Assembly (NCBI RefSeq): GCF_014202505.1
Contig: NZ_JACHGW010000009.1
Location: forward strand, 1-64,000
From: Armatimonas rosea
Lineage (GTDB): Bacteria > Armatimonadota > Armatimonadia > Armatimonadales > Armatimonadaceae
Length of the DNA stretch: 64,000 bases
Reading direction: 5' to 3'
Below, one piece after another: positions 21,225 to 42,795 of the stretch. The translations under genes were made by a program, and so were the position numbers. The stretch's first letter is position 1. Every line of letters starts with the position of its first letter. The notes below the pieces were generated by a model. It made no database searches, had not been told where the DNA came from, and was given only the letters and a program-made list of their open reading frames with translations.

Positions 21225-21344
21225 CGCCTCTGTTAACACCTGCCACCACACCCATTACCTTAGTTTCGAGGGTCAAGCTGGTACAACAAAGCCGGAGAGG
21301 AACTTTTGAAGCCCGATTCTCGCACAACGAAAAGGAGTGAGACG

Positions 21345-23849: not shown

Positions 23850-24223
23850 GTGCAAACCGTCTTGTGCCGCTCGGCAAAACCAGGCGGAGGAGCAAAGGTT
23901 TCTGTGGATTCTTGAGCCTCTTTCGGTCGGGGGTGGGCACAAGGAAAATCCTTTTCCACAAAGAATCGATAGCTCTCCTGCACAAAATAAACCCCCTCGG
24001 TATCGGGAGCCGACAGCTCTGTGAGTGATCCGGCGCTCAAGGTTATTGTGAGAGAGCCTGGTACTGTGGAATCCAAGGCACTCTCTTCGCCGGGCTGAAC
24101 ACAGACCTGCCAGCCCCCTGGGAAGGCTGCTTTCTCACACACACTTGCGCCATCCTGAAGTAACGTAAACTCACCGGGCGTGATCCGTAGCCGCAGAGAG
24201 CCTTCCATCCAGCGCACTTTCAT
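23846..24223 (-). CDS. Small uncharacterised protein between nasA-like gene and mobA
   Basis: 125 residues starting [19 protein letters not shown], mostly beta strand, with a tail ending [12 protein letters not shown] and HKTVCT. The beginning resembles small proteins (DUF7009-like, MKIRIxGNSLRLRL pattern) that I associate with molybdoenzyme clusters; that link is from memory and only moderately sure. It overlaps both neighbours by 4 bp, so it is co-translated with the molybdoenzyme and MobA and may act in maturation of the enzyme. No catalytic motif is visible. Confidence 0.7.
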
Positions 24224-26430
24224 GAGCTCGCCTCTTTCTCAGCCTCGGTTGCCTCTTCCTGTGTTGCGGGCCGCACCCGGACTGCGCTGACCTTAAACTC
24301 CGGAATCTTGGACGTGGGATCTAGGTTTCGCGCCGTGAGGAGATTTGCAGAGCGTCCCCCACCCCAGTGATAGGGAATGAAAACCGTGTCGGTACGGATT
24401 GTCTTGACAAGGCTCGCCTTAAAGGTTGCTTTCCCCCGACGGCTCTCCAGCGTCACCCACTGGCTCTGCGCGATCCCCAGGCTTACGGCCAGCTCGGGAT
24501 GGATCTCCATGAGCGGCTGAGGGTACTGCTTGACCAGCCCCGCGATGCGGCGGGTTTGCGTCCCGGAGAGGTACTGGCTGACAACCCGCCCTGTGGTCAG
24601 CCAGATGGGGTAGTCCGCATCCACGACCTCGGCAGGAGGCCGGTAGGTGATGGGGTGGAAGTGCGCCTTGCCATCGGGGGTGTGGAACTTGTGGTCCTCA
24701 AAAAGGCGCGGCGTGCCCGGATGGTCTTCGGTCGGACAGGGCCAGAAGATACCGTTGTTCTTCTCGATCTTCTCGTAGGTGATCCCGCCGTAGTCCGCCG
24801 TGCCTCCGTGGGACGCCCGCCGTAGCTCTGTGAAGATCGCCTCGGGGGAGTCAAACTGAAAGCCCTTCTCTCGCCCAAGACGCTGGGCAATGGCCTGGAG
24901 AATCTGCCAGTCTGCCTTGGCCTCGCCGGGGGGATCCACGGCCTTACGAATCCGGATCACCCGGCCCTCGGCGCTGGTGCTGGTGCCTTCGTCCTCTTCG
25001 TGAAGAGCACTGGGCAGGACGATATCGGCGTGCTGGGCGGTCTCCGAGAGGAAAAAATCCATCACGGTGTAGTGCTCTAGCCGCTCCAGTGCTTCGCGGG
25101 TGAAGTTGGCATCAGGGAGCGAGACCAGCGGGTTGAAGCAGAGCGAGAGCAGCCCCTTGATCTCGCCGTCGTGGATGGCATTCATGATCTCCTGCGCCGA
25201 GAGCCCCTTGCCGGGAATCTCACTCTCCAAGACCCCCCAGACCTCGGCGATATACTTGCGGTGCTCGGGATTGGTGATATCCCGGTTACCGGGGAGCTGG
25301 TCGCACTTATGGCCGTGCTCACGCCCGCCCTGGCCGTTGCCCTGCCCGGTGATTGTCCCGTAGCCACAGCCCGGCCTGCCGAGTCGGCCGGTTGCCAGGA
25401 CGATATTGATGCACGAGAGCACATTCTCCACGCCCTTGCTCTGGTGCTCGATGCCACGGGCATGCAGGAGAAAGCTGGTCTTGGCGGGTCCCCAGAGCTC
25501 GGCGGCTCTGACAATTAGCTCTGCCGGGACGCCGGAGTCGCGCTCGGCTTTGTCGGGGGTGTAGTCGGCGACGGTGGCCTTGGTCTCGTCCCAGCCGCTC
25601 GTGTAGCTTGCGATAAACGCCTCATCGATCCAGCCACGCTCGATCAGGACATGGAGAATCCCGTTCATCAGCGCCGAGTCGCCGCCAGGGCGCACGGGGA
25701 GATGCAGGTCGGCGGTACGCGCCAGTGGCGTGACACGCGGGTCCACCATAATGAGCTTCGCCCCTCGATCCCTTGCCCGCCAGATATAGTCGGTCGTGAT
25801 AGGCGAGCACTCCGCGATATTGCTCCCCGTCACCAAGATCACATCCGCAAGCACGATATCGTCCCAAGAGTTGGCCGCGCGGTCGATCCCAAAGGCTTTC
25901 TTATTGCCCGCCCCTGCTGAGACCATGCAGAGCCGCCCGTTGTAGTCCAGATTCGCCGTTTGGAGCGCGAGGCGTGCAAACTTGCCCACTAGATACGACT
26001 TCTCATTGGTCAGCGAGACCCCGGAGAGCATCGCGAACGCATCGTTGCCGTGGGCTTTCTGGATGCGCTGGATCTGGCGCACCGTCGTATCGAGAGCTTC
26101 GTCCCAGGAGATACGCTCGAACCCTCTCCCTTCCACACGCTTCATGGGATGGAGCAAGCGATCTGGATGCTCGTTTTGCATGTAGCGCAGGATTCCCTTG
26201 GGGCAGAGCTTGCCTCGGTTAAAGGGGAAGTCCTCGCGCGGCTCAAAGCCAATCACTTTGTTGTTCTTGACCTTGAGGTTAATGCCACACTGCTGACCAC
26301 AGAAGCAGCAGTGTGTCGGCACGAGCTTATCTGGCTCGCCAGGGTACCCCCAGCCACCGGGAGGAGCAGCGTTGACATGCGGCCCGAACTGCTCGATCAG
26401 GCTCGCCATAGGAAGAGAGAGTTTTGCCAT
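24220..26430 (-). CDS. NasA-like molybdopterin nitrate reductase, catalytic subunit
   Basis: 736 residues. The N-terminal [4Fe-4S] motif is C41-x2-C44-x3-C48-x27-C76. The molybdenum ligand is expected to be C168 in [12 protein letters not shown], matching the SRLCM-S-AVAG motif of assimilatory NasA/NapA-type enzymes. The C-terminal molydopterin-binding domain begins around [21 protein letters not shown]. No Tat signal is present, so the enzyme should be cytoplasmic. It lacks the C-terminal [2Fe-2S] and FAD regions of some NasA proteins. In this operon it could receive electrons from the Fe-S/Rieske/NarI-like proteins instead of NADH. Nitrate is the likely substrate given two NarK genes in the operon. 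Confidence 0.85.
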
Positions 26431-26434
26431 AGAT

Positions 26435-27835
26435 TTATAACTTGTAGTTTAGCTCCCCATAAGCAAAGAAGCCCTTGCTGTCCGGGTAGATGCCCTTCAC
26501 GACCGTACTTCCCAGCAGGTGCCCGACATAGACCGTGGCGCTCGTGCGCTTGTCAAGGACTCGGTCAGCGCTGAGATCGATCAGGTCTGCGAGCGAGGTG
26601 CCACCGCTTGGGTTGGTGCGCCCAATCAGGCCAAAGCTCCCCGCAGAGAGAAACGGTCCTCCAGCGGCGTACCAGCGGTCGCTGGCTTTATCCAGCGAGA
26701 CATGGTGCAGGTCAGCGCGTAGCGTGGTCTTCTTGTCTGGGTGGAAGATGGCCTGTGCGAAGAGATCGCGGCTATTGGCCTCAGCAAAAAACGGGGTACG
26801 GGCGTAGATGCGCGGCGTGTTGAGCAGCGGCGAGAAGGTCTGGTGCTTGCCGTCGGTGGGGTTACCATCACCGGAGTAGACATCGTAGCCAACCCGATAC
26901 CACGGTGCATTCTTCTCAGCCTTGGGCTGCCAGCCCGCCTCCAACGAGTAGGCGTAGGCTTGCTGGGTTTGGGTGCCCCAGTCGCCACTCTGGACAGCAG
27001 CCCAGCCCAGTACATCCCACTTGCCGTTGGCGTTCTCGCCGCTCTGGATATAGTGTCCCCCCAAGGTGGTGAGGGTAATAGTTGCGGTGTCCGCCACGGC
27101 GGGTACCTGGTTATCCACCTTCGTCACCCCTTTGCGAGCATCTTCGTAGAGAATCCCAAAGAGGCGCTGATCGCTGGTTTTGGTGGTTCGCGTGGCAGCG
27201 AGGTAGCCAACCCGCACCGACGTGAGCGTGGGCTGGCCGTTGAGATCGAAGACCCCGGCAGTGGGATAGGCAACAACGGCGGTGAGGTTATCGGTGCCCT
27301 TGGTTTTGCTGTAGTGGACGCCGTCGAAGCTACGTCCTACCTGGCTCCAGCCAAATGTCCCGATCAGACGCTGGCTGACCCGCTGGCTCTTCACCCATGC
27401 GAGCGCAGGATTCTCTGGGGTGGATTCTGCGCCTTCGTTGAACTCAAAGCGTCCTGCCCGAATTCCACGGAGCTTGTCCTGGTAGAAGGCTTGCTTGACA
27501 AAGAGGCTGCTGGTCTGGTTGCCATTGAAGCCCCGGTAGAGTGCTCCCAGCCCGAGCCCGCCCTGCGGTGCGGGAGCCGTGGCCCGGGTCGGTAGGCCAA
27601 TGAGTGCTGGGGCTTCTAGCTCGACCGTCGCGCTACTAGTTTTTGTAGTGCGGGTGGCACCGTAGCGGAGGGTTGCCCCCGTGAAGGCGTAGGCATTCTG
27701 AAAACTGCCTGTCGCGGGCTGGAACCAATCCCAAGCCTCTTGTCGAAGCCGGAGCGAGCCCGAGTAGGTTGTTGTCTGGGCGGTTGCCGGGGCGACCGCA
27801 AGAACGACGAGTCCAAGTGTCAGTGTTGGTTTCAT
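26435..27835 (-). CDS. Outer-membrane beta-barrel protein (alginate-export family)
   Basis: 466 residues with a signal peptide ([20 protein letters not shown]) and alternating strands over the whole length; the pattern [16 protein letters not shown] and YAYSLEAGW, ending in an aromatic residue near the C-terminus (GELNYKL), is that of the alginate_exp porin family. Its place inside a nitrate operon (stop of NarI-like gene overlaps its start; NasA-like gene 4 bp on) suggests passage of nitrate or nitrite through the outer membrane. That role is inferred. Confidence 0.82.
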
Positions 27836-28893
27836 AAGAATCCAGGTCCTCCAATAAGTTCAAGCTGGTTTGCCGCCAGCAGGCGGCGACGGCAGGTGGG
27901 GCAGACATCCTGGTAGTGTCCGCCGTCCTCAAGCGTCTGATCAAAGCCGAGCTGCTCCAGGACGAGCTTTAGGTCGTCCACCTGCATCTGTGAGGCGTAG
28001 TCCTCAGCGCAGACACGGCAGTGAGCGCGGGCCGATGCCTTTCCCTCTTCCTTGTAGAACTGCACTCCGATATTGGCCGGGCGCTGAAAGACATGGAAGA
28101 ACTTGCCAAACGGCAGGTAGAGCAGTGTCGTAATCACGCTGAACGCGTGCAAGGTCGCCAGGAAGCTGTAGTTGTGACCGTGCATCCAGACCGCACTCGC
28201 CGTGAGCATCAGGCCCGTCAAGCAGACCGCAAAGAGCAGGATCAGCGGAAAGAAGTCGTTGGCGAACTGCTGAACGGTCAGCGCACCGGGATCGTAGAGG
28301 CGGCGCTTGAAGGCAAAGCCCATCCCAACTAAAATCGCGACCGCACAGAAATCCAAAATATGGAAGATCACCCAGCCAAAGAGCGAGTGCGCGGGAAAGG
28401 TCATGGCGGGGAAGCCGAAGACAAACGTGATGTACTTTGCCGGGTCGCTGGGGTCGGCCTCGAACGCCACCCAGCCAAAGACCAGTGGAAAGGTCACCGC
28501 GCAGGCGAAAAGACAGCCCCAGGAGATCAAAAAGTGCGCCGTCCAGCGGGTGTGGCTCCGCTTCTCGATAAAGGTCTGGGCGATCAGGTTGTCCCAGGCG
28601 AGGCGCACCAGATGCAGGCAGTTCTTCACAAAGTGCGACGGCCGCAGAAAGAGCCGCCAGCCCTGCCGCCAGTAGAGCGCGGTGGGAGGCTTCTCCAGCC
28701 AGACCCCGTAGCGGTAGACCACACCAAAGGTCGCGAAGATGCAGGCACAGGTGTAGGCGATTAGCGCCGGGTCGAAGCGTGCCATCCGCCCCGATCCCAG
28801 ATAGATCGCAACCACATTGAGTAGAGCCGCACCGGACGCCCATAAGAGCGCCCGGCGGTCGAGCCCGAAGCTACGAGTGCCAGGCTCTAGCAT
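27832..28893 (-). CDS. NarI-like diheme cytochrome b with C-terminal zinc-type motif
   Basis: 353 residues with two N-terminal helices and then a NarI-type four- to five-helix core. The spacing H-x17-H (LHAFSVITT...KFFH) equals that of the heme ligands in NarI; two more histidines lie in SHTRWTAHF and WVIFHILDF. The C-terminal soluble tail has CRVC and CPTC pairs, likely binding a metal ion. It overlaps the porin gene (4 bp) and the NarK gene (7 bp). It should pass electrons from quinol to the Fe-S and molybdenum subunits of this operon. There is no NarJ chaperone gene in the window. Confidence 0.78.
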   Translation of the reverse strand: MLEPGTRSFGLDRRALLWASGAALLNVVAIYLGSGRMARFDPALIAYTCACIFATFGVVYRYGVWLEKPPTALYWRQGWRLFLRPSHFVKNCLHLVRLAWDNLIAQTFIEKRSHTRWTAHFLISWGCLFACAVTFPLVFGWVAFEADPSDPAKYITFVFGFPAMTFPAHSLFGWVIFHILDFCAVAILVGMGFAFKRRLYDPGALTVQQFANDFFPLILLFAVCLTGLMLTASAVWMHGHNYSFLATLHAFSVITTLLYLPFGKFFHVFQRPANIGVQFYKEEGKASARAHCRVCAEDYASQMQVDDLKLVLEQLGFDQTLEDGGHYQDVCPTCRRRLLAANQLELIGGPGFL

Positions 28894-30242
28894 GGCTTCT
28901 CAGCTCCTTTACGGGTATAGAAGTGCCAGTTGAGCACCAAGCAGAAGAGATAGAACACCGCCGCCGCCCAGAAGAACGCCGTCGGGCTCCCGGTTGCGCC
29001 GATCACGCTTCCAATTGCCACTGAGAACAGAAACGGGCCATAGGCTGCAATCGCGGACGTCCATCCGATCACACCCGATGCCTGCCGGGGTGGGAAGATC
29101 ATCGGCATCTGCTTGAACGTGCTGGCGTTGCCGATCCCGCTAAAGAAGAATAGCCCCAGCATGGTCCACAAGAAGCCTCCGAACTGATCCACAGAAGTGG
29201 GAGCCGTGTAGCGGGTGGCAAGTACAGCGCAGACCGTCAGCCCGATCCCCGAGAGCATCGTCACCTTTGCGCCCCCGATCTTGTCACAGACCGGGCCGAA
29301 GAGAACGCGAAGCAGTGCCCCCAGAAATGGTCCGATAAAGGCGTACTTGAGGGCATCGGGTGCACCGGGGAACTTACCGTAGAGTTCCTTGATCATCAGG
29401 CCAAACGACGCCGAGAAGCCAGAGAAGGAGCCGAAGGTCATGATGTAGAGCGCCGTCATGATCCAGGTGTGCTTCTCCTTGAAGATATCGGTCTGCTCCC
29501 GGAACGTGGCCTTCACCGGCACGGAGCGCAGGGCAATCCAGGCCCAGATCGCGCCGATCACGATCAGCGGAATCCAGATCAGAAAGGCGTTTTGTAGGTG
29601 GAGCGGCTTGTCATGGATATTCTTCTTGGGGTCGTTGAAGAGCTGTGTGCCGCTGACCATCCCGATCCCGATCACAATCGGGGTCAGGAACTGCACCACA
29701 CTCACCCCGAAGTTGCCGATCCCCGCCTGAATCCCCAGCGCGGTGCCAAGCTGCTTTTTAGGGAAGAACAGGCTGGTGCTGGGCATGAAGGAGCTGAAGT
29801 TGCCACCGCCTAGTCCGGCGAGAAAGGCCAGGAGCATCAGCACGGAGAACGGGGTCTCCGGGTTCTGGATCGCCCACGCCCAGCCCGCGCAGGGGATGGC
29901 AAGAAGCAATGTCGAGAGTGCCACAGTATGGCGGGTTCCGAAGATGGGGATGAGGAAGGTGTGGATAATGCGCAGGGTTCCCGCCGCCAGCCCCGGCATG
30001 GCCGCCAGCCAGAAGAGCTGCCCCTTATCGAGCTTGAAGCCGATTCCCGTGAGGCGCACGAGCACCGCGCTGACCACGAACCAAGTCGCAAAGGCCAGCA
30101 GCAGGCAGTAGGTCGTCACCCAGAGCGTCTTCCAGGCCGTGGCTTTTCCGCCCGCCTCCCAGAAGGCGCTGTCCTCAGGTTTCCAGTCGGAGAGCCAGCT
30201 TGCGCCCGTGCGCCCAGCCTCCGGTAGAGCTTGTGTTGCCAT
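28887..30242 (-). CDS. narK: Nitrate/nitrite transporter, NarK type (copy 2)
   Basis: 451 residues and twelve membrane helices of the major facilitator superfamily. It has the two nitrate signature motifs of the NNP family: AGLGGGNFSSFMPS and GIQAGIGNFGVS. The ATG at 30242 was chosen because the product then begins shortly before the first helix; the frame is open for 103 more codons upstream but those overlap the next gene. It follows a second NarK gene by 11 bp. Paired NarK1/NarK2 genes are known from denitrifiers, where one brings in nitrate and the other exchanges nitrate for nitrite. Confidence 0.92.
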   Translation of the reverse strand: MATQALPEAGRTGASWLSDWKPEDSAFWEAGGKATAWKTLWVTTYCLLLAFATWFVVSAVLVRLTGIGFKLDKGQLFWLAAMPGLAAGTLRIIHTFLIPIFGTRHTVALSTLLLAIPCAGWAWAIQNPETPFSVLMLLAFLAGLGGGNFSSFMPSTSLFFPKKQLGTALGIQAGIGNFGVSVVQFLTPIVIGIGMVSGTQLFNDPKKNIHDKPLHLQNAFLIWIPLIVIGAIWAWIALRSVPVKATFREQTDIFKEKHTWIMTALYIMTFGSFSGFSASFGLMIKELYGKFPGAPDALKYAFIGPFLGALLRVLFGPVCDKIGGAKVTMLSGIGLTVCAVLATRYTAPTSVDQFGGFLWTMLGLFFFSGIGNASTFKQMPMIFPPRQASGVIGWTSAIAAYGPFLFSVAIGSVIGATGSPTAFFWAAAVFYLFCLVLNWHFYTRKGAEKPC

Positions 30243-30253
30243 CGTTTTGTCCT

Positions 30254-31504
30254 CTAAATCACGTGTTCTTCGTCGCGGTGGATATGCACTACCACGGCAT
30301 GGAGCCAGCCTAGGCTCATCAGGGTCAGGGCCAGTAGCGCCCAGAAGAGCGACTGAGGCTGACCCGTAGCGGTCTTGAGCGCGGCGAAGAGCGGGGGCAG
30401 ACCAAAGCCGCCCAGGGCAGCGAGCGCCCCGACCAGCCCGACCACCGTCCCCACATCTTTGGGGTAGTAGTCCGGGATGTATTTGATCGTGCTCGCCTTT
30501 CCAAAGCCTTGTGTGATCCCCAAAAGCAGGGTAAGCCAGAAGAAGGGCCACATTTCCTGGCGCACCGAGAGGGCTCCGCAGGCGAGTGCCCCCAGGATAA
30601 AGACCGTGTAGGTCACTTTACGCGGCCCAAACTTGTCTGAGAGCCAGCCACCGAAAGGCCGGAGTAGGCTGGAGGCGAAGATATACGGGACGCACATCAG
30701 GGCCGCTTTCTTTAGCGGCAGGTCGTAGACATCGACGTAGTACTTCGGGAGCCAGACCGAGAGAGCGACATAGACTCCGAAGACCACGGTGTAGTAGAGC
30801 GAGAAGCGCCAGACACGAACTTCGTGGAGCGGTCTCAGCATCTCTTTGAGTGGGCGGCCCTGGTTGGGAACTATATCGGGGGTCGGAGCGGCGACAGTGA
30901 CTAAAGCCGCCATCAGGAGCATCAACCCCGCGTAGAGACAGGGAACAAAGCGCCAGCCACCGGGGATCAGCCCGCCTGCCATCCCTGTGGCAGGGACGGC
31001 GGAGATGATCATGGGGCCGATGAGCTTGGTGACACTCGCTCCCACGTTGCCTGCGCCAAAGAGCCCTAGCGCGAAGCCTTGCTGTGCCTTGGGGAACCAG
31101 GCCGCGTTCCAGGCCGAGCCAATGGTGAAGCTATTGCCGGCCATTCCCACCAGCACGGCACAGGCGAGGAGCATGCCGTAGGAGTGGGTGCGCGAGACCA
31201 AGAGCGATGCCACAGCGGAGAATAGCAGGCATCCCAGAAACGCCTTACGCCCCCCAATCTTGTCGGCGAGCATTCCCAGCGGGAGCCGCCAGAGTGCGCC
31301 GTTGAGAATCGCCAGCGCGGAGAGCCAGGCGAGCTGCATGTCCGAGAGCCCAAGCTCCTTACGGATGGGGATGCCCAGCACCCCAAACATGGTCCACGCC
31401 GCGAACATCAGAGCAAAGCCGATAAAGCTCAGCCAAAGAACGCTCATGCGTCGAGCATTCTCTTGTGTTTGGCTTCCTGTACTGTGTAGAGTTGTTGCCG
31501 CCAT
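30254..31504 (-). CDS. narK: Nitrate transporter, NarK type (copy 1)
   Basis: 416 residues, twelve membrane helices. The motifs GMAGNSFTIGSAW and ALGLFGAGNVGAS are those of the NarK1-like (nitrate/proton symport) branch of the NNP family and differ from the GGNF type of the second copy. It lies between a small membrane protein and the second narK gene. Nitrate uptake is the probable task. Confidence 0.92.
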   Translation of the reverse strand: MAATTLHSTGSQTQENARRMSVLWLSFIGFALMFAAWTMFGVLGIPIRKELGLSDMQLAWLSALAILNGALWRLPLGMLADKIGGRKAFLGCLLFSAVASLLVSRTHSYGMLLACAVLVGMAGNSFTIGSAWNAAWFPKAQQGFALGLFGAGNVGASVTKLIGPMIISAVPATGMAGGLIPGGWRFVPCLYAGLMLLMAALVTVAAPTPDIVPNQGRPLKEMLRPLHEVRVWRFSLYYTVVFGVYVALSVWLPKYYVDVYDLPLKKAALMCVPYIFASSLLRPFGGWLSDKFGPRKVTYTVFILGALACGALSVRQEMWPFFWLTLLLGITQGFGKASTIKYIPDYYPKDVGTVVGLVGALAALGGFGLPPLFAALKTATGQPQSLFWALLALTLMSLGWLHAVVVHIHRDEEHVI

Positions 31505-31744
31505 CTAGCTGCCTCCTTCCGGGCGGTGGTCGAGGTCATGGATGTAGCGCAGGACCACGAGGTTGACCAGAAAACACCCCCCTGAGGCCAGAAACGTCGG
31601 GAGTGCGAGAGCGGAGTGCTCTGCCAAGTGCTCCTCCAGCGCCAGCGTGATCAGCCAGAGCTGGATCAGGAAAAGGGCTAAGGTGATGCAGAGCAGCATC
31701 ACCAGCGCCTGCGCTCGCCGCTGCCACCAGACTCGATTTTTCAT
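31505..31744 (-). CDS. Small two-helix membrane protein
   Basis: 79 residues with two membrane helices (about 12-32 and 46-66), a basic N-terminus ([12 protein letters not shown]) and a short charged tail (YIHDLDHRPEGGS). It lies directly between the Rieske gene (4-bp overlap) and narK (adjacent), so it is part of the operon. It resembles small accessory membrane proteins (DUF6755-like) known from respiratory gene clusters; this similarity is weakly supported. It might anchor the Rieske protein or a subunit. Confidence 0.72.
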   Translation of the reverse strand: MKNRVWWQRRAQALVMLLCITLALFLIQLWLITLALEEHLAEHSALALPTFLASGGCFLVNLVVLRYIHDLDHRPEGGS

Positions 31745-32289
31745 CCCTCGGCCTCGTCCGAGCTTGCCAGTCCCGCCGCGAAGATCTCACCGTTTTCCAG
31801 CTTCAGCGCGATTCGAGGCAACGGACGTGGGGGTGGCCCACCTAGAACGCGCCCTGTTCTGGCATCGAAGGTTCCGTTGTGACAGGGGCAGTCGAGCTGG
31901 GTCTTCTCGACGTTAAAGTGCACCGGGCAGGACAGGTGGGTGCAGCGCTGACGGAAAGCCACAAAGCGATTCTCTGCTAAGCGGATCAGCATTGCGGGAT
32001 CGGCCTCCGTGGGGTAGCGAAAGAGCTTGACTCCTCCAATAGGTAGCTCCGTGAGGGTGGCGATCTTGACGGTCGGGCCGGACTCGGCGCGGGGTGTGAG
32101 GGCGTTTTTGGCGACAAAGTAGCCGTTGCCAAGGAAGGTTGCGCCGCTGGTGAGGATTAGAAAGCGTGTGAAGTCCCGGCGCGTGACATAGTTGTCTGCC
32201 GCCCACTCGACCGGAAAGTCCTCGCGCCACTTCTCCTCGGGAGTGGGCTCTTTGCCTTTGCAGTTTTCGCAGTTTCCACCACAGCTCAT
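31741..32289 (-). CDS. Rieske [2Fe-2S] protein with Cys-rich N-terminus
   Basis: 182 residues. Rieske ligands are in CTHLSC and CPCHNG. The protein starts with a small cysteine cluster ([13 protein letters not shown]) and has one membrane helix around [17 protein letters not shown] after a VTRRDFTRF segment, which looks like a Tat-type twin-arginine signal. It overlaps the Fe-S protein gene and the small membrane protein gene by 4 bp each. The first cysteine cluster is not part of the usual Rieske fold and may bind a further cofactor. It should be a one-electron carrier in the leftward nitrate operon. Confidence 0.9.
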
Positions 32290-32882
32290 CTTGGGTTGTC
32301 CTTGTCTTTCTTTATCCAGTTCTGGAGGGGCACTAACCCGACTTCCAGGCGCTCCGGCTTATCGTCGGGGAGCACGAGGTAGACCTGTGTCTTGACGACT
32401 TGCTTGCCAAAGCGAAACTCATTGATGGCGCGGCCCCGTCGCCGCTTCTGCCAGGTATCGATGGGGCCAAAGTAGAGTGCCTCCGACGGGCAGACCGTGG
32501 CGCACATGGGCTTCTTCCCCACCGACGTCCGGTCGTAGCACATGTCGCACTTCATCATCTGATCCACAGGGGCATCGTACTTGGGGACACCGAAAGGACA
32601 GGCGAGCACGCAGTTGCTACAGCCAACGCAGCGGGGTTTGAGCGAGGTCTGCACGACACCATCGGGGGTTTGCTTAATCGCATCGGCGGGGCAGACCCGA
32701 GCGCACGTCGGCTCTTCACAGTGCATACAGACCTGTGGTGTCGTCTGAACGGTCTCTTCCCGCTGGAGATACTCCAGGTGGATCATCGAGACCCCGCGGT
32801 GGGTTCCACACTCTCCGCATGCCTGAACACAGGCTTGACAGCCGATGCAGCGCGCAGGATCAACGATAAAAACGGATTGCAT
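32286..32882 (-). CDS. Four-cluster [4Fe-4S] electron-transfer protein (DmsB/NrfC type)
   Basis: 198 residues with four complete sets of cysteines: [37 protein letters not shown] and [21 protein letters not shown]. This is the ferredoxin-like subunit of DMSO-reductase family enzymes. It is the first gene of the leftward operon; its start codon lies inside a 26-bp palindrome. It probably serves the NasA-like enzyme seven genes downstream. Unlike the fused protein at 36315-38165, all sixteen cysteines are present. Confidence 0.92.
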
Positions 32883-32906
32883 AATCGGATATGATTATCC
32901 GATTAT
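32881..32906. promoter_or_regulatory. 26-bp palindrome overlapping the start codon of the nitrate operon
   Basis: ATAATCGGATA-TGAT-TATCCGATTAT has perfect 11-bp arms. The minus-strand ATG of the Fe-S gene occupies 32880-32882, so a bound protein or RNA structure would cover the start. The inner half TTATCCGAT recurs upstream of the narG-like, RIC, padR and AAA genes. Confidence 0.6.
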
Positions 32907-32943
32907 CGAGAAAAGTAAGAATCCCCATAATGGCGGAATTAGG

Positions 32944-33753
32944 TCAGAGTGCCAGCGTAGCAATGATGCCAAACCAGAGCGCAAGTGCTGCCTCGCGCAT
33001 CCCGACTTTCTTCAGCGGGGGGAGCTTACCGTCGAGCTGGACATAGGTCAGTACGGCCCGAATCAGCGCAGGAAGAAATGCTAACCCAAGCCACGGGGAG
33101 CGCAAGAGGAGCAGCCCAACGAAAAGCAGAGCGTGGTAAAGGACATGGGGCCAGCCAATGCCCCAACGCTCCTTGTTTGTGAGTCCCTTGCGAAACCTCG
33201 CCGAGGCAAGTACCAACTTCACCGCAAAAACACCACTGGCAAAAAACGCGATGGAGAGCCCCCAGACCACCAAGGCTTTTGTCCCCAGGGGCATCGCAAG
33301 CGCACAGGCGGCGGGGCCGGGAAGCGTCAGGGCCGGGATCGCAGCAAGCTCCCCCCAGAGCGAGCGGTCAAGGCGCTTCCGGGCTGGAATGAGGAGAAGC
33401 ACCCCTTGAACGGCTAGAAACAAGACGGCCACCCCACCCAGTACGGCAAAGTCCTGCCAACGTGGCACCTGGAGCAAAAGTGGAGCGATTGAGGCTAGCC
33501 CTATCACTGCAAACAACGCGAGCCAGCCCAAGTCACGGTGCGAGGTGCGCTTGCGAAGCCAGAGCCGCACCAGGTTCTGAGCGCAGAAGGCAGCCAGTGT
33601 TGCCACGATCAGCAAAAAGGTCGGTGTTAGCGCAGCATGGACATCCCACGCTCCCAATAGCAAGGGGACGCTCAGCATGACCCAGGCACCGTGTTCTTTG
33701 GGGAGTGGAGGCATCTTGAGGCGCAGAATAAAACCTGGACTTGAGCTCTGCAT
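32944..33753 (-). CDS. YwiC-like membrane protein
   Basis: 269 residues with about eight membrane helices. It carries the family's start PLPKEHGAWVMLSVPLLLGA. In Bacillus subtilis ywiC lies among the narK-fnr-narGHJI genes, and relatives are often next to nitrate respiration genes; their role is unknown. Here it lies between the two nitrate operons and is divergent from the narG-like gene. The start at 33753 is that of the longest frame; ATG at 33714, just before PPLPKEHGAW, is equally possible. Confidence 0.82.
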   Translation of the reverse strand: MQSSSPGFILRLKMPPLPKEHGAWVMLSVPLLLGAWDVHAALTPTFLLIVATLAAFCAQNLVRLWLRKRTSHRDLGWLALFAVIGLASIAPLLLQVPRWQDFAVLGGVAVLFLAVQGVLLLIPARKRLDRSLWGELAAIPALTLPGPAACALAMPLGTKALVVWGLSIAFFASGVFAVKLVLASARFRKGLTNKERWGIGWPHVLYHALLFVGLLLLRSPWLGLAFLPALIRAVLTYVQLDGKLPPLKKVGMREAALALWFGIIATLAL

Positions 33754-33869: not shown

Positions 33870-36311
33870 ATGGCAACGCGCGCTGGGGTTCCGGGACGAA
33901 GCTCGTCCCCTCCACCACCGGAGGGTGCGATGATTATCCGCACCACGGATAGTCCCAACTGCACAGGAGCCTGCGGCTGGAACGCCACCGTCGTCAATGA
34001 TGTGATTGTGGATCTCAAGCCGGCGGCGGACTATCCTTGTGCGGAGTACAACCCTCGGGGGTGCCTGCGGGGGATGTCGATGACGCATCTTATCTACGGA
34101 CCAGACCGTATCCAGCGTCCCCGGATTCGCACTGGGCCGCGCGGCTCGGGGCAGTGGCGCGAAGTCACTTGGGATGAAGTGCTGGATCACCTCGCAGGGG
34201 AGATGAAGCGCCTCAGCGATACCTATGGACCAGAGTCCATGCTCCTCTTTAACCAAGTGGTGGGCACAAGCTATGTCCAAAAAGGTGCCCAGATTCGAAT
34301 GGCGGCACTGCTAGGGATGTCCTTTGCCACCGCCTACGACTACAACGGCGATATCGCCATGGGCTTCACCCAGACCCTCGGCATCGACTCGATTGAGTGT
34401 GAAACCAAGAGCTGGGGACATGCCAAGTACGCCCTCCTCTGGTCGGCCAATATCTTTCAGACCCGCATCCCCGATGCCCACTTTCTGACCAAAGAGGCCA
34501 AGCAGCAAAACGGCTGCAAGATCGTCAGTATCGACCCGCGCTGCTCCCAAACCGCCAAGGGTTCGGATCTCTGGCTGCCCGTACACCCCGGCACCGATGG
34601 TGCTCTGGCGCTGGCGATGTGCCACACGATTATCGAGGAAGGGCTGGTGGACTGGGAGTTCCTGCGCACCTTCACCGATCTCTCCACCTTGATCCGTGAT
34701 GACACCGGCATGCGCCTGCGGGCCAGCGATCTGGGCCGTGGCGGCGAGAATGAGTTTGTGGTCTGGGACGAAACCACCGCCGACTTTTTTGTCCTGCCCT
34801 CCGAGACGCTAGCGCTACCCGAAGCTGTCCGCCCAGCATTTCGTGGGAGTCGCACCATCACCATTGGTGGCAAAGCTGTCAAAGTCACGCCCGTCTACGA
34901 GCTGCTCGAAGACCTAGTGATGCGGGAGGCGTATAAGCCCGAGACGGTCGCGCCGCTCTGTGACATTCCTGCCGCGACCATTCGCCAAGTGGCCCGTGAG
35001 TACGCCACGACCAAGCCAGGCATTATCCTGATCGGGATGGGGATCAACCATCGGCTCCATGGCGACCTGACTATCCGCTCGATCCTGCTACTCTCCGCAC
35101 TTGCAGGCCAGTACGGCACGGCGGGCTCCGGGGTCTCGATCTACTCCGGCCAGCACCACTTCCGCATCGATATCAGCGGCTTCTGGTACCCCGATGGCAA
35201 GCGCCCCAACCTCGTCCCGATGCACTACTTTGCAATGGGTGGTCCCACGGAGACGATCCACCCCAAGATCAAGTACCCCAAAAGCGGCTTTAAGGCGCTC
35301 TTTGTCTCGCATGCCAATCCACTGGTGACGGAGTTCTCCGGCCCCTTCAAAGACGCCATCGACAAGCTAGAGCTCTTCGTTGCCGTGGACTTCTCGATGA
35401 GCCCGACCTGTGAGTACGCCGATGTGGTCCTCCCCGCCCCGACATTCTGGGAGAAGCACGATCTCGTGGGCACGGGTTGCCACCCCTACTTGCAGCTTCA
35501 GCAGCCTGTGGTCTCACCGCAGTACGACAGCAAGAGTGAGTTCTGGATGGTGCGCGAGCTGCTCAAGCGCATTGATCCCGAAAAAGCGCGCTATTTTGAG
35601 ATGACAGAGCTTGAGGCTATTGACCTTCTGCTCAAGACAGCGGGCAAGGAGACGGAGGGAATCACTCTGAAACAGCTCCAGCAAGGTCCCGTGCGCCTCA
35701 ATGTTCATGACCCAGAGATCGGCCTCGACGACCAGCTCCTTCACAAAGTCCCGTTTCCACCACGTGCCTTGCCCTTCAAAGTGGAGCAGCAGCGCGAGTT
35801 TCTCAAGACGGGCCGGATGGAGTTCTACAAGGAGGAGCCGATATACCAGCAGCTCGGGGAGACCCTTCCCCACTGGCGACCGACCTTTGAGCACCTCTCT
35901 GACGAGGACCAAGCGCTCCCGCTTTCCATTGTCACCCCACACTCCAAGTGGCGGGTTCACTCGACCCACTCCAACAATCCACTGCTGATCAACCTCAATC
36001 GCAAGCCCATCGTGGAGCTCAACCCGCGCGATGCCCTCAAGCGCGGCATCCGTGATGGCGACCCGGTGGAGATCTTCAACACCAACGGGAGCTACCGGGT
36101 CTGGGCACTGCTCACAGAGACGATCAAGCCCGGCGTGGTTTGTGTGGATCACGGCTGGTGGGATCGGTACTTAGGCAAGGGCAAGTACCACGGCGTCCAC
36201 ACTCATCAGCGTATCAAGCCCACCCACGAAGCCTACTACCTGCCCGCAGTCTACGCGCCGGGGCAGCACTGGAAAGACACCCGTGTGGATGTCAAGAAAG
36301 TAGAGGACTGA
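33870..36311 (+). CDS. NarG-like type II molybdopterin oxidoreductase, catalytic subunit
   Basis: 813 residues. It belongs to the type II DMSO-reductase branch (NarG, PcrA, SerA, EbdA): SFATAYDYNGDIA holds the Asp expected to bind molybdenum, and DAHFLTKEAKQQNG, DPRCSQTAKGSDLWLPVHPGTDGALAL and DTGMRLRASDL are typical. The [4Fe-4S] set is D27-x3-C31-x3-C35-x29-C65; NarG has His where D27 stands. No Tat signal is present, pointing to the cytoplasm. It is much shorter than NarG (about 1250). The start at 33870 follows AAGGAGG at 7 bp. Nitrate is a likely substrate from context, but chlorate, selenate, or other oxyanions, or the reverse reaction, cannot be ruled out. Confidence 0.85.
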   Translation: MATRAGVPGRSSSPPPPEGAMIIRTTDSPNCTGACGWNATVVNDVIVDLKPAADYPCAEYNPRGCLRGMSMTHLIYGPDRIQRPRIRTGPRGSGQWREVTWDEVLDHLAGEMKRLSDTYGPESMLLFNQVVGTSYVQKGAQIRMAALLGMSFATAYDYNGDIAMGFTQTLGIDSIECETKSWGHAKYALLWSANIFQTRIPDAHFLTKEAKQQNGCKIVSIDPRCSQTAKGSDLWLPVHPGTDGALALAMCHTIIEEGLVDWEFLRTFTDLSTLIRDDTGMRLRASDLGRGGENEFVVWDETTADFFVLPSETLALPEAVRPAFRGSRTITIGGKAVKVTPVYELLEDLVMREAYKPETVAPLCDIPAATIRQVAREYATTKPGIILIGMGINHRLHGDLTIRSILLLSALAGQYGTAGSGVSIYSGQHHFRIDISGFWYPDGKRPNLVPMHYFAMGGPTETIHPKIKYPKSGFKALFVSHANPLVTEFSGPFKDAIDKLELFVAVDFSMSPTCEYADVVLPAPTFWEKHDLVGTGCHPYLQLQQPVVSPQYDSKSEFWMVRELLKRIDPEKARYFEMTELEAIDLLLKTAGKETEGITLKQLQQGPVRLNVHDPEIGLDDQLLHKVPFPPRALPFKVEQQREFLKTGRMEFYKEEPIYQQLGETLPHWRPTFEHLSDEDQALPLSIVTPHSKWRVHSTHSNNPLLINLNRKPIVELNPRDALKRGIRDGDPVEIFNTNGSYRVWALLTETIKPGVVCVDHGWWDRYLGKGKYHGVHTHQRIKPTHEAYYLPAVYAPGQHWKDTRVDVKKVED

Positions 36312-36314
36312 CCC

Positions 36315-38165
36315 ATGGCTCGCCTCTCAATGCTCATTGACCTGACCCGCTGCATTGGCTGTGATGCCTGTACGCTCGCCTGCAAGCAAGAGAACGGCAC
36401 CCCAGCGGATGTTTTCTTTGCCCGTGTCTTAAATATCGAAGCGGGCACCTACCCCGATGTCCAGCGCCTCTATCTCCCGGTGCTCTGCAACCACTGTGAC
36501 AATCCAGCCTGCCTGAAAGCCTGCCCCAACAAGGCGATCTATAAGCGCGACGATGGAATTGTGCTGATTGACCAGGAGCGTTGCCGGGGTACGGGGGCCT
36601 GTGTCTCCGCGTGTCCCTATGGCAATATCATCCTCAACGAGAAAGACGCCTGGTATCTCCCCGAGGATCGCGCCTACGAGCGGGATTTTGTCAAGCCACG
36701 GCTGAAGGAGAATGTCGCCCGCAAGTGTACGTTCTGCGCCCAGCGTGTGGACCAGGGTCTGAATCCAGCCTGTGTGGTGGCCTGCCCGACCCATGCCCGT
36801 ATCTTTGGTGATCTGGAAGACCCGGAGAGCGAGATATCCGAGTACATTGTCAATCAGGAAGCGCAGACAGGCCGTGAGGCGTTTCATCTTTTGCCGGAGT
36901 GTGGCACCGAGCCTGCGAACCTCTACCTTGGCCCGATGGCGGAGCAAGAAGTACGCACACTAGGAGGAACAGCAGAGCCAGAGCCCATTGGCGAGCCCTA
37001 TGAGGGGTTGGCACAGCTCCGGGATGCGGCGACCAAAGTCTTGACGTTCTTGTTTGTCGCAATTCTGCTCACGCTGGGCACGGCGCACGCGCAGGGGGTG
37101 GATCCCAGTGACCATGAGACTTGGATATCATCAAGCTGCGCGGGGTGCCACGGCAATGGTGCAATGGGAGGCATGGGGCCACCGCTGGCACAGACCAAGC
37201 TGGACTACGAAAAATTCGCCCACTTCGTCCGCCATGGCAAGGGCATGATGCCCGCCACGAAATCGAAAGATCTCGCCGATGACGAATTGCAGTCGATCTA
37301 TGCCTTCGCCAAGAGCGCCCCACGCGATGAGTCGCAGGTGCCGCTGGCCTTCAAGATCGCTGGACTGCTCACCACGCAGAATGTCGGGGCGGGGTTTGCC
37401 TTCATTGGGATTGTCTCGCTCCTATTGGGCTTGAAAGTCCTACTCTACTGGCTGGACTGTGCTGGCATCCACCGCCTGACGCCCTATTTTGGCAAGCTCG
37501 GCTGGGGCCGGACGCTCCAAATCGCTCTCCATGCCGTGATCGTAGAGGGACTCTTTGTCCGCTCGCTCTGGCGCAAGAGTAAGCACCGGTGGGCGATGCA
37601 TGGCCTGATGCTCTACGGCTTTATGGGGCTGGGAGCCACCGACTTTCTGATGTCTATTTTCAACCCAACCCGTGCGGATCTTGGGCAGGGGCATCCCCTG
37701 AAAATCGCCGCGAATACAGCAGGGTTTCTCTTACTCATGGGCCTTGCCTACGTCCGTGTTCGCTACCGGAAAGACGAGTACATCGACAATGGGCTGACAC
37801 TTGGGCGTGACTATGCCTTTGTCAACCTGATGACGCTCGCGCTGATCACAGGGTTTCTCACCGAGCTCTTTGGCGTGCTGGGAGCCAACCTCTGGATCTT
37901 ACCAACCTATCTTGTCCATCTCGTTCTGGTGGCGACTCTGCTCCTCTCGGCTCCCTTCACCCGCTTCGCCCATGCCTTTGTCGTCCCTGCGCTCATCGCC
38001 ATGACGCGCCTGACGGAGGCGGTCACGACAGCAGGGATTGGCCTGGGCTTTGAGCGCGAACCCTCACCAGGCAGACACCACAAGTCGGAGCGCATTGTTG
38101 CTGGATTGCTTCGTGAGGTCGCTCCTGACAAGGCGGACAACTTCACGATCCGGTACTACCCGTAA
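36315..38165 (+). CDS. Fused Fe-S protein / cytochrome c / NarI-like cytochrome b subunit
   Basis: 616 residues in three parts. Residues 1-215: NarH/DmsB-like ferredoxin domain with cysteines 13-16-19-23, 58-61-66-70, 90-(T93)-96-100 and 138-141-153-157; Thr93 replaces one Cys, as Trp does in NarH, so one cluster is probably [3Fe-4S]. Residues about 242-258: a membrane helix (VLTFLFVAILLTLG). Residues 262-340: a monoheme cytochrome c (C275-AGC-H279, likely Met ligand in GKGMMP at 310-313). Residues 350-575: NarI-like helices with an H-x17-H pair (VHLVLV...RFAH). The topology puts the Fe-S part in the cytoplasm and the heme c outside. It starts 3 bp after the narG-like gene. Confidence 0.88.
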   Translation: MARLSMLIDLTRCIGCDACTLACKQENGTPADVFFARVLNIEAGTYPDVQRLYLPVLCNHCDNPACLKACPNKAIYKRDDGIVLIDQERCRGTGACVSACPYGNIILNEKDAWYLPEDRAYERDFVKPRLKENVARKCTFCAQRVDQGLNPACVVACPTHARIFGDLEDPESEISEYIVNQEAQTGREAFHLLPECGTEPANLYLGPMAEQEVRTLGGTAEPEPIGEPYEGLAQLRDAATKVLTFLFVAILLTLGTAHAQGVDPSDHETWISSSCAGCHGNGAMGGMGPPLAQTKLDYEKFAHFVRHGKGMMPATKSKDLADDELQSIYAFAKSAPRDESQVPLAFKIAGLLTTQNVGAGFAFIGIVSLLLGLKVLLYWLDCAGIHRLTPYFGKLGWGRTLQIALHAVIVEGLFVRSLWRKSKHRWAMHGLMLYGFMGLGATDFLMSIFNPTRADLGQGHPLKIAANTAGFLLLMGLAYVRVRYRKDEYIDNGLTLGRDYAFVNLMTLALITGFLTELFGVLGANLWILPTYLVHLVLVATLLLSAPFTRFAHAFVVPALIAMTRLTEAVTTAGIGLGFEREPSPGRHHKSERIVAGLLREVAPDKADNFTIRYYP

Positions 38166-38182: not shown

Positions 38183-38680
38183 ATGGAACCCCACTACAAC
38201 CACGAACCCGACCCTGAGACTCCCACCCGCCGAAAGGTGATGGGGAGCTTGATCGGCCTGATCAATGCAGGGCTGGCGGCGGCTATAGCGCTACCTGCGC
38301 TCGCGTTTCTCGTAGACCCTCTGCGACGTAAGTACGCCACGGGGGACTGGATCGCTGTTCTCGATGACAGTGCGCTCGCAGAGGGAGAGACCAAGTATGT
38401 CACCTTTGAGATGCTGGTGGACGATGGTTACATGAAGTCGGTGCGCAATGCCAGTGTCTATGTCAGTCGCAAGGGCTCGCGCCTGGTCGCCTACGACCCC
38501 TCGTGCCCGCACCTAGGCTGCCATGTCGAGTACAAGAAAAAACGGGATCGCTATATCTGCCCTTGTCATGGCGGCGTCTTCGACAGCGATGGTGAGCGGG
38601 TCTCAGGGCCACCTCCTCGTGGACTGACAAAAATCCCAACGCGCACGGACGGTGGGCGCATCTGGATAAGAAAGGCATAG
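38183..38680 (+). CDS. Rieske iron-sulfur protein of a bc-type complex
   Basis: 165 residues with a twin-arginine-like leader (PTRRKVMGSLIGLINAGLAAA), one membrane helix and a Rieske domain with the ligands in CPHLGC and CPCHGG, followed by the proline loop SGPPPRGL. It stands 17 bp after the fused cytochrome gene, with AAGGAGG upstream, and 4 bp before the cytochrome b gene. This is the usual QcrA/PetC partner of cytochrome b. Confidence 0.93.
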   Translation: MEPHYNHEPDPETPTRRKVMGSLIGLINAGLAAAIALPALAFLVDPLRRKYATGDWIAVLDDSALAEGETKYVTFEMLVDDGYMKSVRNASVYVSRKGSRLVAYDPSCPHLGCHVEYKKKRDRYICPCHGGVFDSDGERVSGPPPRGLTKIPTRTDGGRIWIRKA

Positions 38681-38684
38681 TATC

Positions 38685-39767
38685 ATGGCGATCTTTCACA
38701 AAACTGGCCACGACGACCTGCACCGTGAGCGTCCTTCGTTGGGCGACTGGCTGAACCTGCGAACCGGCTGGTACGGCTTTGTCCAGAAAAACTTGGATGA
38801 GCCCATGCCTGCTGGCGTAGGCTGGTGGCAGACGCTGGGCAACCTGCTCCTCACGCTTCTGGTCTTTCAGTTCGTGAGTGGATTCATGCTCACGCTCTAC
38901 TACGTACCCAGCCCAGACCATGCCCACCAGAGCGTGAGCTACATCAATAACAGGGCCTGGATGGGCTCGATCGTGAGGGGAATCCACCACTACGGCTCCA
39001 GCTTTTTGGTGATTGTGATTGTCCTACACATCCTGAGGACGTTCTTCTGGGGCACCTACAAAAAACCGCGCGAGCTGACCTGGGTCTTTGGGGTGCTGAT
39101 CTTTGGCATCATGCTGGCCTTCTCCTTCACCGGGTATCTTCTGCCGTGGGATCAGAAAGCCTTTTGGGCGACGGTCGTGGGGACGCGCATGGTCGAGACG
39201 GTTCCATTAGTGGGCGATAAGCTTGTGGTGCTGGTGCGTGGTGGTCACGAGGTCGGTGCCCTGACCCTAACTCGCTTCTACGCTATCCACATCATGGCAC
39301 TTCCACTCGCTCTGATGGGGCTCACCGCGGCCCACCTCTACCTCGTGCGGCGGCTCCATATCGCGGGGCCGGTGACCAAGCAGAAGGGTAAGCCCGTCAA
39401 GTTCTATCCCACTCAGCTCTTCCGTGATGCGGTGGTGTTGCTCGTGGCTGTCGGCTGGCTCTTAGTGCTGGCCTACCTCGCCAAGCCAGAGCTCGGTGAG
39501 GTCGCTAACCCAGCGCGGGTAGACTTTACCCCCAAGCCCGAGTGGTACTTCCTGGGTCTCTATGAGCTGCTTAAGCTCCTGCCGCCACAGCTTGAATCTG
39601 TCGGGACGTTCTTTATTCCGATGGGGATGATCGCAGGAATGCTGGCGCTCCCGTGGCTAGACCGCTCTGAGTCCCGCCACCCGGCAAAGCGCCGTTGGAT
39701 CATTGATGTGGCGATTGTAACAATCCTAGGGATCGGGATACTCACCCTCAAAGGGCTCCTCTCGTAG
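38685..39767 (+). CDS. Cytochrome b (b6 plus subunit IV in one chain)
   Basis: 360 residues with about seven or eight membrane helices. Heme ligands are visible as H-x13-H in GIHHYGSSFLVIVIVLH and H-x14-H in AIHIMALPLALMGLTAAH; the second spacing is that of cytochrome b6. The quinol-site motif is PEWYFLGLYELL, in the subunit-IV part. With the Rieske protein it forms the core of a quinol-oxidising bc complex; no separate cytochrome c1 gene follows, so the heme c of the fused protein upstream may take that place. This is an inference from gene content. Confidence 0.93.
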   Translation: MAIFHKTGHDDLHRERPSLGDWLNLRTGWYGFVQKNLDEPMPAGVGWWQTLGNLLLTLLVFQFVSGFMLTLYYVPSPDHAHQSVSYINNRAWMGSIVRGIHHYGSSFLVIVIVLHILRTFFWGTYKKPRELTWVFGVLIFGIMLAFSFTGYLLPWDQKAFWATVVGTRMVETVPLVGDKLVVLVRGGHEVGALTLTRFYAIHIMALPLALMGLTAAHLYLVRRLHIAGPVTKQKGKPVKFYPTQLFRDAVVLLVAVGWLLVLAYLAKPELGEVANPARVDFTPKPEWYFLGLYELLKLLPPQLESVGTFFIPMGMIAGMLALPWLDRSESRHPAKRRWIIDVAIVTILGIGILTLKGLLS

Positions 39768-42123: not shown

Positions 42124-42795
42124 CTATTGTTTTTTCAGAAGTGTCGCCAGGCGGATCAGATCGTCTTCCGTAATGTCAATAAACGAATCGAGAGAGCGGA
42201 TTGCCTCCAGTACCTGCGCGTGCTCTTGCTCGGATGTTACGCTCACCGGAAGCTCCTTGAGGCGGTTCAGGGTAGCCGGGTAGCGCCTCCAGCGGAAAGC
42301 CCCATTCAGGACAATGGCGAGCAGTACCATCACCACTGCGTTAAGGAGAACCGGTGCTAGGACAAAACGAAACCCGAGTTGGTGAATCGCATTTCCTCCC
42401 ATCACAGCAGTAAACGCCGTCGCTCCGCCGGGAGGATGAACGCACTTAAGCTGGAGCATCGCCCCGATTGAGAGTCCGACCGCGCAGGCAACGGCCAGGG
42501 GGGCGTACCCAATATAGCGTCCACAAGCCACCCCGATCAGGGCAGAGACGACATGCCCCGCCACAACCGGCCATGGCTGAGACAGCGGTCCGTGCGGCAC
42601 AGCAAAAAGCAAAACTGCACTCGCTCCGGTCGAGGCGATAACAGGTACAGCTCCCTCAGTGGGAAGTATCCATAGGGAGAACAGAGTTACGAGAAAGACC
42701 GCAAGCCCACCCCCGATAAGGGCAATGCCCTTTTCCAGAGGGCTGACTTCGACCAGCTCGACACCGAGCCATCGTAGCGTATGTTTCAAAAGCAT
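42124..42795 (-). CDS. HPP-family integral membrane protein (copy 2)
   Basis: 223 residues, closely similar along the whole length to the copy at 18975-19685 (shared LKCVHPPGGATAFTAVMGG, VIASTGASAVLLFAVPHGPLSQPWPV and the tail SLDSFIDITEDDLIRL). The family has been connected with nitrite transport in plastids. It ends about 105 bp upstream of ric, in the same direction, and has its own copy of the 19-bp upstream motif. The upstream sequence GTATGATTT is conserved between both copies. Confidence 0.9.
   Translation of the reverse strand: MLLKHTLRWLGVELVEVSPLEKGIALIGGGLAVFLVTLFSLWILPTEGAVPVIASTGASAVLLFAVPHGPLSQPWPVVAGHVVSALIGVACGRYIGYAPLAVACAVGLSIGAMLQLKCVHPPGGATAFTAVMGGNAIHQLGFRFVLAPVLLNAVVMVLLAIVLNGAFRWRRYPATLNRLKELPVSVTSEQEHAQVLEAIRSLDSFIDITEDDLIRLATLLKKQ

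Follow-up and report, generated by a model that had tools for sequence, protein, structure and literature searches.

A recurrent Fe-S/cytochrome c/cytochrome b gene fusion in an Armatimonadota operon for a putative molybdoenzyme with its own Rieske/cytochrome b pair

The window analysed here (the whole stretch of 64,000 nucleotides, positions 1 to 64,000 of Armatimonas rosea contig NZ_JACHGW010000009.1) contains an open reading frame at 36315–38165 that an original prediction, made from the letters alone, took to join an Fe-S protein, a cytochrome c and a NarI-like cytochrome b in one chain, parts that it described as normally separate. Is this gene real and recurrent, does its product stay in one piece, and from where to where would it carry electrons?

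The fused gene and its relatives

The frame begins with ATG and is unbroken, and its 616 codons and 15 cluster cysteines are as predicted. The parts of the gene are the following:

36315–38165 (+): fused Fe-S/cytochrome c/cytochrome b gene, 616 aa.
36315–36959 (+): Fe-S domain, residues 1–215, whose 15 Cys are predicted to hold three [4Fe-4S] clusters and one [3Fe-4S] cluster; ArrB/TtrB/DsrO-type profiles and Fer4_11.
37035–37091 (+): internal signal-peptide-like helix, residues 241–259, ending AHA/Q260 (the slash marks the possible cut), which matches the cleavable signal peptide of split relatives.
37137–37250 (+): cytochrome c domain core, from CAGCH (275–279) to the Met ligand candidates M311/M312; Cytochrome_CBB3, kept in 36/36.
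37374–38162 (+): five-helix NarI/QmoC-like cytochrome b with a basic C-terminal tail and invariant H429, H535 and H553 (37/37); QmoC E 3e-15, NarI Z 9.1 (low-confidence model).

Pfam matches to the fused protein are Fer4_11 (E 6e-27) and Cytochrome_CBB3 (E 3e-13). The cluster cysteines (C13/16/19/23, C58/61/66/70, C90/96/100 and C138/141/153/157 in alignment numbering) do not vary in any of 36 relatives; at the sixteenth cluster position, residue 93, Thr or Ala stands in 36/36 and Cys in none. Enzymes with a single [3Fe-4S] cluster, as is predicted here, show this pattern. NarH has a Trp at that position. The likeness to NarH that was originally proposed needs qualifying: ArrB/PsrB-type subunits in the PDB are closer to this part (162 and 145 bits) than NarH is (82 bits). 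In the cytochrome c part the CAGCH heme-c site was correctly foreseen, and the candidate Met ligands of a class I cytochrome c are kept in 36/36. Tandem cytochrome c domains, with two CxxCH motifs 79–92 residues apart, occur in the c-b genes of L133, L135, L149, L154 and L155, a group with split as well as fused members.

The b part has no Pfam match at E <= 0.01, and its best curated model is NCBIfam QmoC. Five helices, with the His ligands in helices 2 and 5, and the basic tail are predicted, and the H-x17-H pattern that was noticed at the outset (H535-x17-H553) is present in 37/37. The AlphaFold model of the full chain is poor (pLDDT 52) and that of the b domain alone marginal (pLDDT 55); residues 422–554 of the latter, low-confidence model align with NarI 45–206 (Z 9.1, 24% identity), and the Z scores of the NarI matches are not above those of unrelated helical bundles, from which only their higher identity (23–24%) distinguishes them. 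We take the NarI heme ligands to be H56, H66, H187 and H205, with H66 the helix-2 partner at the distal heme. Judged by spacing and by this low-confidence model, H429 and H553 would lie at the NarI proximal heme and H535 at the distal heme; the residue ten positions after H429 is Leu439 in 37/37, which leaves three of NarI's four His ligands. Since the helix-2 His of the distal heme is replaced by Leu439, two-heme transmembrane transfer is not assured, and a distal heme is either bound another way or absent. The NarI-like reading of this part therefore stands for topology and the H-x17-H pair but not for the fourth His, and the nearest family is QmoC. The RWxxH...G helix and the H-x17-H pattern are shared with the QmoC/HdrE/DsrM branch of the NarI superfamily; QmoC differs in having its own Fe-S domain, no cytochrome c and other partner enzymes.

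With the b domain as query, strong matches were found in 37 of 291 Armatimonadota genomes. Thirteen of these (the window included) have the fused gene, 23 have separate Fe-S and c-b genes, and one contig is too short to decide; the c and b parts are one protein in every case, and the Fe-S part is fused to them in 13/36. The gene order is alpha (the catalytic subunit), Fe-S, c-b, Rieske and cytochrome b wherever the contig shows it, apart from L136, where no alpha was found, and L159, where no Rieske or cytochrome b was found. In most split genomes the c-b gene opens within the Fe-S gene's stop codon, so that the two overlap by 4 nt, as in Chthonomonas sp. UBA6659 (L016, evidently the same contig as L131), where in ..ACCTTATGAAGGCC.. 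the TGA closes one gene and the ATG starts the next. The fused gene unites two adjacent coding units, an Fe-S subunit and a c-b subunit, that are separate genes in 23 relatives.

A frameshift, which had been named as a possible refutation, is excluded as the cause because the same fusion stands in the same operon in 12 other genomes, including the independently sequenced metagenome-assembled genome L015 (59–61% identity); third-position GC is also equal on both sides of the junction (0.68–0.71), and an assembly artefact is rejected on the further fused genomes together with this uniform codon composition. In a tree of concatenated proteins the window clusters with three fused relatives (100/98), and the tree, whose root is arbitrary, calls for at least four changes between the fused and split states (2–4 in bootstraps). 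Together the fused and split forms make up a natural series in which to study how signal peptides and internal membrane helices replace each other. The other searched genomes of the window's genus and family are without the operon, so that its presence here is patchy. An exact-peptide-pattern scan of genome contigs returned full-length relatives in the Armatimonadota only, and the plasmids searched held no relatives; sampling in depth covered the Armatimonadota only, and absence from other phyla is not implied. No described enzyme with this domain order was found in the literature searched, as had been stated originally, but the architecture is no singular case, since it recurs in 13 genomes.

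Two further loci depart from the general pattern. At L159:3600-7866 a single frame of 1138 codons runs through alpha, Fe-S, c and b, without a stop codon where alpha passes into Fe-S; the N-terminal part of this alpha is broken by an inverted repeat, perhaps through an assembly fault, and the genome is 64% complete. At L161:7361-9653 (G196) all that is left of the operon is a piece of the b domain's end together with the Rieske protein and cytochrome b.

The junction helix and the fate of the chain

The split c-b protein has an N-terminal signal peptide, mostly ending A-x-A/Q, and by sequence the hydrophobic segment originally called a membrane helix in the fused protein is this signal peptide, lengthened and placed mid-chain. 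The segment is indeed hydrophobic, but it keeps a cleavage site: a signal-peptidase motif stands just before the heme site in 11/13 fused proteins by a strict definition and 12/13 by a loose one, where 5–7% would be expected (kinship uncorrected). The median uncharged run of the helix is 19 residues in fused and 15 in split proteins (p 5e-4), and its 19-residue hydropathy is 2.32 versus 1.78 (p 2e-5), both uncorrected for kinship.

These features bear on whether the same enzyme contains an uncut 68-kDa chain, in which the former signal peptide has become a permanent membrane helix and electrons pass through a single polypeptide. The longer and more hydrophobic helix of the fused proteins is what would be expected of a stable helix and speaks for such a chain; against it stand the kept cleavage motif and the 23 relatives that operate with two chains, and we give it somewhat less than an even chance. 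Since the A-x-A/Q site is kept in 11–12/13 fused proteins, a precursor that is cut into two subunits appears at least as likely as one unbroken chain, although the site may have been kept only through recent fusion in some lineages. The mature product would then be either a tail-anchored Fe-S subunit and a c-b subunit from one precursor, or one 68-kDa chain. The expected lack of subunit interfaces is for this reason doubtful, even though the gene is single. A precursor of this kind has a parallel in Bradyrhizobium FbcH, reportedly a cytochrome b/c1 precursor that has an internal signal sequence before the cytochrome c and is cleaved. In both cases a precursor would supply two redox subunits, with the signal sequence lying within the chain ahead of a cytochrome c; the enzymes are different, and cleavage, which is said to have been demonstrated for FbcH, is suggested for the fused gene by its motif.

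The distribution of charges fits an Fe-S domain inside and a cytochrome c outside, with only the first cytoplasmic loop strongly basic. This modest charge evidence agrees with the signal peptide of the split form on a predicted topology in which the Fe-S part and the C-terminus are inside and the c part is outside.

The operon and a probable electron path

The fused gene lies 3 nt downstream of the gene for alpha, and two more genes come after it, one for a Rieske protein and one for a cytochrome b of the bc type:

33870–36311 (+): alpha, catalytic Mo/W-bisPGD subunit, 813 aa, type II (Asp ligand), without export signal; Pfam Molybdopterin, TIGR03479 473 bits (below cut-off).
38183–38680 (+): Rieske [2Fe-2S] protein with an N-terminal anchor; Pfam Rieske E 2e-11, ligand motifs conserved.
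38685–39767 (+): cytochrome b of the bc/b6f type, 360 aa; Pfam Cytochrome_B E 6e-48 and C-terminal domain.

Alpha scores best, among all NCBIfam models, against TIGR03479 (type II DMSO reductase; 473 of 984.75 bits), and by sequence it is a divergent branch of the type II (Asp-ligand) DMSO reductase superfamily, with which the 15-Cys Fe-S part and its [3Fe-4S]-type substitution (Thr/Ala at residue 93) also agree. Among solved structures alpha is closest to PcrA (361 bits; NarG 228), and the Asp of an NGD motif, which aligns with what we take to be the Mo-ligand Asp of PcrA and NarG, is kept in 31/31. We predict a cytoplasmic location for alpha, as none of its 31 N-termini resembles a Tat or Sec signal. 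In its TTDSPNC motif (window 33942–33980) an Asp occupies the position of the NarG FS0 His in 31/31; an Asp-ligated [4Fe-4S] cluster is possible, and we know of no described enzyme with Asp in place of this His.

The curated NarG and NarH models are both missed (narG 271 of 1084 bits, narH 89 of 524 bits), and NarJ (PF02613) is absent from the genome, where 5/14 control genomes were positive. With scores below the curated cut-offs, fewer than four heme ligands and no NarJ, the operon should not, on its sequence, be filed as NarGHI; its product probably works like NarGHI with a different electron supply. That supply is the point at which the original prediction, which lacked the Rieske protein and bc-type cytochrome b downstream, is changed with regard to the likely electron source. 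The Rieske ligands and the adjacent Cytochrome_B domains are both present; no separate cytochrome c1 or f gene stands in the operon, and since neither the Rieske genes nor the bc-type cytochrome b genes of the set contain a CxxCH, the operon's only heme c is the c domain of the fused or c-b protein. Being the only one, it would naturally accept electrons from the Rieske protein as a substitute for cytochrome c1/f.

We therefore propose, with a probability of about 0.55, that the gene encodes the electron bridge of a cytoplasm-facing Mo (or W) oxyanion reductase, most likely a nitrate reductase, that is coupled to its own Rieske/cytochrome b complex. Menaquinol would be oxidized by the Rieske/cytochrome b complex in a Q cycle, and electrons would pass from this complex to the periplasmic heme c (standing in for cytochrome c1/f), from heme c to heme b back across the membrane, and from heme b through the Fe-S clusters to the cytoplasmic Mo site, where nitrate imported by NarK would be reduced; the active site would thus be fed by the enzyme's own Rieske/cytochrome b complex and not directly by quinol. 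The lack of an export signal on alpha and the Fe-S protein, together with the signal peptide of the split c-b protein, supports this path with Fe-S inside and c outside. The outside-to-inside orientation of the original prediction is likewise supported by the charges and that signal peptide, while the direction of electron flow is what we infer. By inferred charge counting, a Q cycle plus inward electron transfer would move about 4 charges per two electrons with menaquinol versus two for NarGHI, and a menaquinol–nitrate span near 0.5 V would make about 4 charges affordable. Counting against a bridge of this kind are an alpha nearer to PcrA than to NarG, the lack of NarJ, the lost distal helix-2 His and a second cytochrome b gene elsewhere in the genome that could serve other acceptors. 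That the Rieske electrons enter at the periplasmic heme c and leave across the membrane to the cytoplasmic Mo site within an uncut polypeptide is a tentative proposal, with odds that we put well below even; if true, it would make a nitrate reductase that resembles cytochrome c oxidase electrically, drawing its electrons from outside and its protons from inside, and moves about four charges per nitrate with menaquinol, versus NarGHI's two.

Nar-type nitrate reductases are textbook quinol oxidases, and the b domain might itself oxidize menaquinol as NarI does, with the cytochrome c a side branch to periplasmic acceptors and the Rieske/cytochrome b pair serving something else. The NarI-like fold match (from the low-confidence model) would fit this, as would Thermus NarC, for which such a branch has been proposed: it is bound to NarI and may send electrons on to the nitrite and NO reductases (PMC7694296). 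But nearly all relatives have the Rieske and cytochrome b genes within this operon, the distal-heme ligand near the NarI quinol site is lost in 37/37, and no NirK was found in this genome, so that we consider direct oxidation unlikely. Much less probable still is that the enzyme runs in reverse as a nitrite oxidoreductase that passes nitrite electrons to the periplasmic heme c. The Thermus-like cluster of Nitrobacter (a NarI homologue and a periplasmic cytochrome c) runs that way (PMC7694296), but the Rieske/cytochrome b pair in the operon points to a quinol donor, and no Armatimonadota nitrite oxidizer was found in the literature searched.

The operon has partial counterparts in three systems, and two of them, in haloarchaea and Streptomyces, favour the preferred reading as precedents for nitrate reductases fed by a bc complex. 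Thermus thermophilus NarCGHI has four subunits, with a separate diheme NarC that binds NarI (PMC7694296). It shares with the present operon a cytoplasmic Mo subunit, an Fe-S subunit, a NarI-type b, a periplasmic membrane-bound cytochrome c and a linked NarK; it differs in its four separate subunits, diheme NarC, full NarI, NarJ and lack of a Rieske/cytochrome b pair in the operon, whereas the Armatimonadota operon always has c and b in one protein, the Fe-S part fused in 13/36 and no NarJ. The haloarchaeal nar operon encodes a Rieske protein (NarB), a cytochrome b (NarC) and NarGH, and Q-cycle coupling from quinol to nitrate has been proposed for it (PMC2483277, PMC4683180). Rieske and cytochrome b genes inside a nitrate reductase operon are common to both, but the haloarchaeal catalytic side is described as outward-facing, so that no electron return across the membrane is needed, and neither a c-b fusion nor a cytochrome c is described in that operon. 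Nar1 of Streptomyces coelicolor depends on and co-purifies with the bcc complex (in a bcc-aa3 supercomplex), by an electron path that is unproven (PMC7931247). It too is a membrane nitrate reductase tied to a bcc complex, but its narGHI genes are separate and the bcc complex is that of general respiration, in contrast to the bc-type pair inside the Armatimonadota operon. The present operon combines parts of the Thermus, haloarchaeal and Streptomyces systems, some of them fused: one operon holds bc-type genes, a cytochrome c and an Fe-S relay, and 13 genomes have some of these in a single gene. The open question of whether Streptomyces Nar1 is fed by a bc complex (PMC7931247) becomes testable here in a compact system. 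No paper on this operon was found in the open-access literature searched, and the Armatimonadota are unmentioned in two papers on molybdoenzyme-family phylogeny (one of them PMC10100899).

Substrate and genomic surroundings

The window also encodes two transporters near the operon:

28887–31504 (−): two NarK-family nitrate/nitrite MFS transporters; TIGR00886 294 and 210 bits (curated cut-off 311.7, not reached).

These two are divergent neighbours of the operon, to which they have a functional link only. Across the set, NarK-type transporters lie within a few kb (in the fetched stretch) of 19/37 operons, directly upstream of alpha in L015, L125 and L126, and NarK is found in 33/37 genomes with the operon versus 41/254 without it (Fisher p 1e-18, kinship uncorrected). 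The window further codes for MoaA, the Fe-S repair protein RIC and a NasC-like nitrate reductase. The NarK linkage and co-occurrence, together with these neighbours, make nitrate the likely substrate. Perchlorate, chlorate or selenate in its place would suit the finding that PcrA is the closest solved catalytic subunit (361 bits versus 228 for NarG) and the presence of a Cld/HemQ-family protein in the genome. The Cld-family gene, however, is on another contig and belongs to a family that includes HemQ and was also matched in 7 control genomes; PcrA is periplasmic (PMC10100899), where alpha here has no export signal; and NarK accompanies the operon as described, all of which makes another oxyanion quite improbable.

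About 3 kb from an ActB-like frame there is a weak NrfA-family match, which was set aside as a probable alternative-complex-III cytochrome.

A second, divergent nitrate module occupies window 24220–33753 (−). It comprises the NasC-like reductase (736 aa), a porin-like protein, a NarI/QmoC-like b cytochrome (353 aa) with a CxxC-rich C-terminal tail, the two NarK proteins, a Rieske protein, a small 4-cluster Fe-S protein and YwiC. Genes closely related to parts of this module adjoin the first operon in L137, L139, L144, L151, L157 and L158. By eye, two similar membrane proteins at 18975–19685 (−) and 42124–42795 (−), apparently paralogues, flank the nitrate region, and a 500-aa protein near the nitrate cluster (19749–21251, −) has the look of a Dyp-type peroxidase with a cupredoxin-like N-terminal part.
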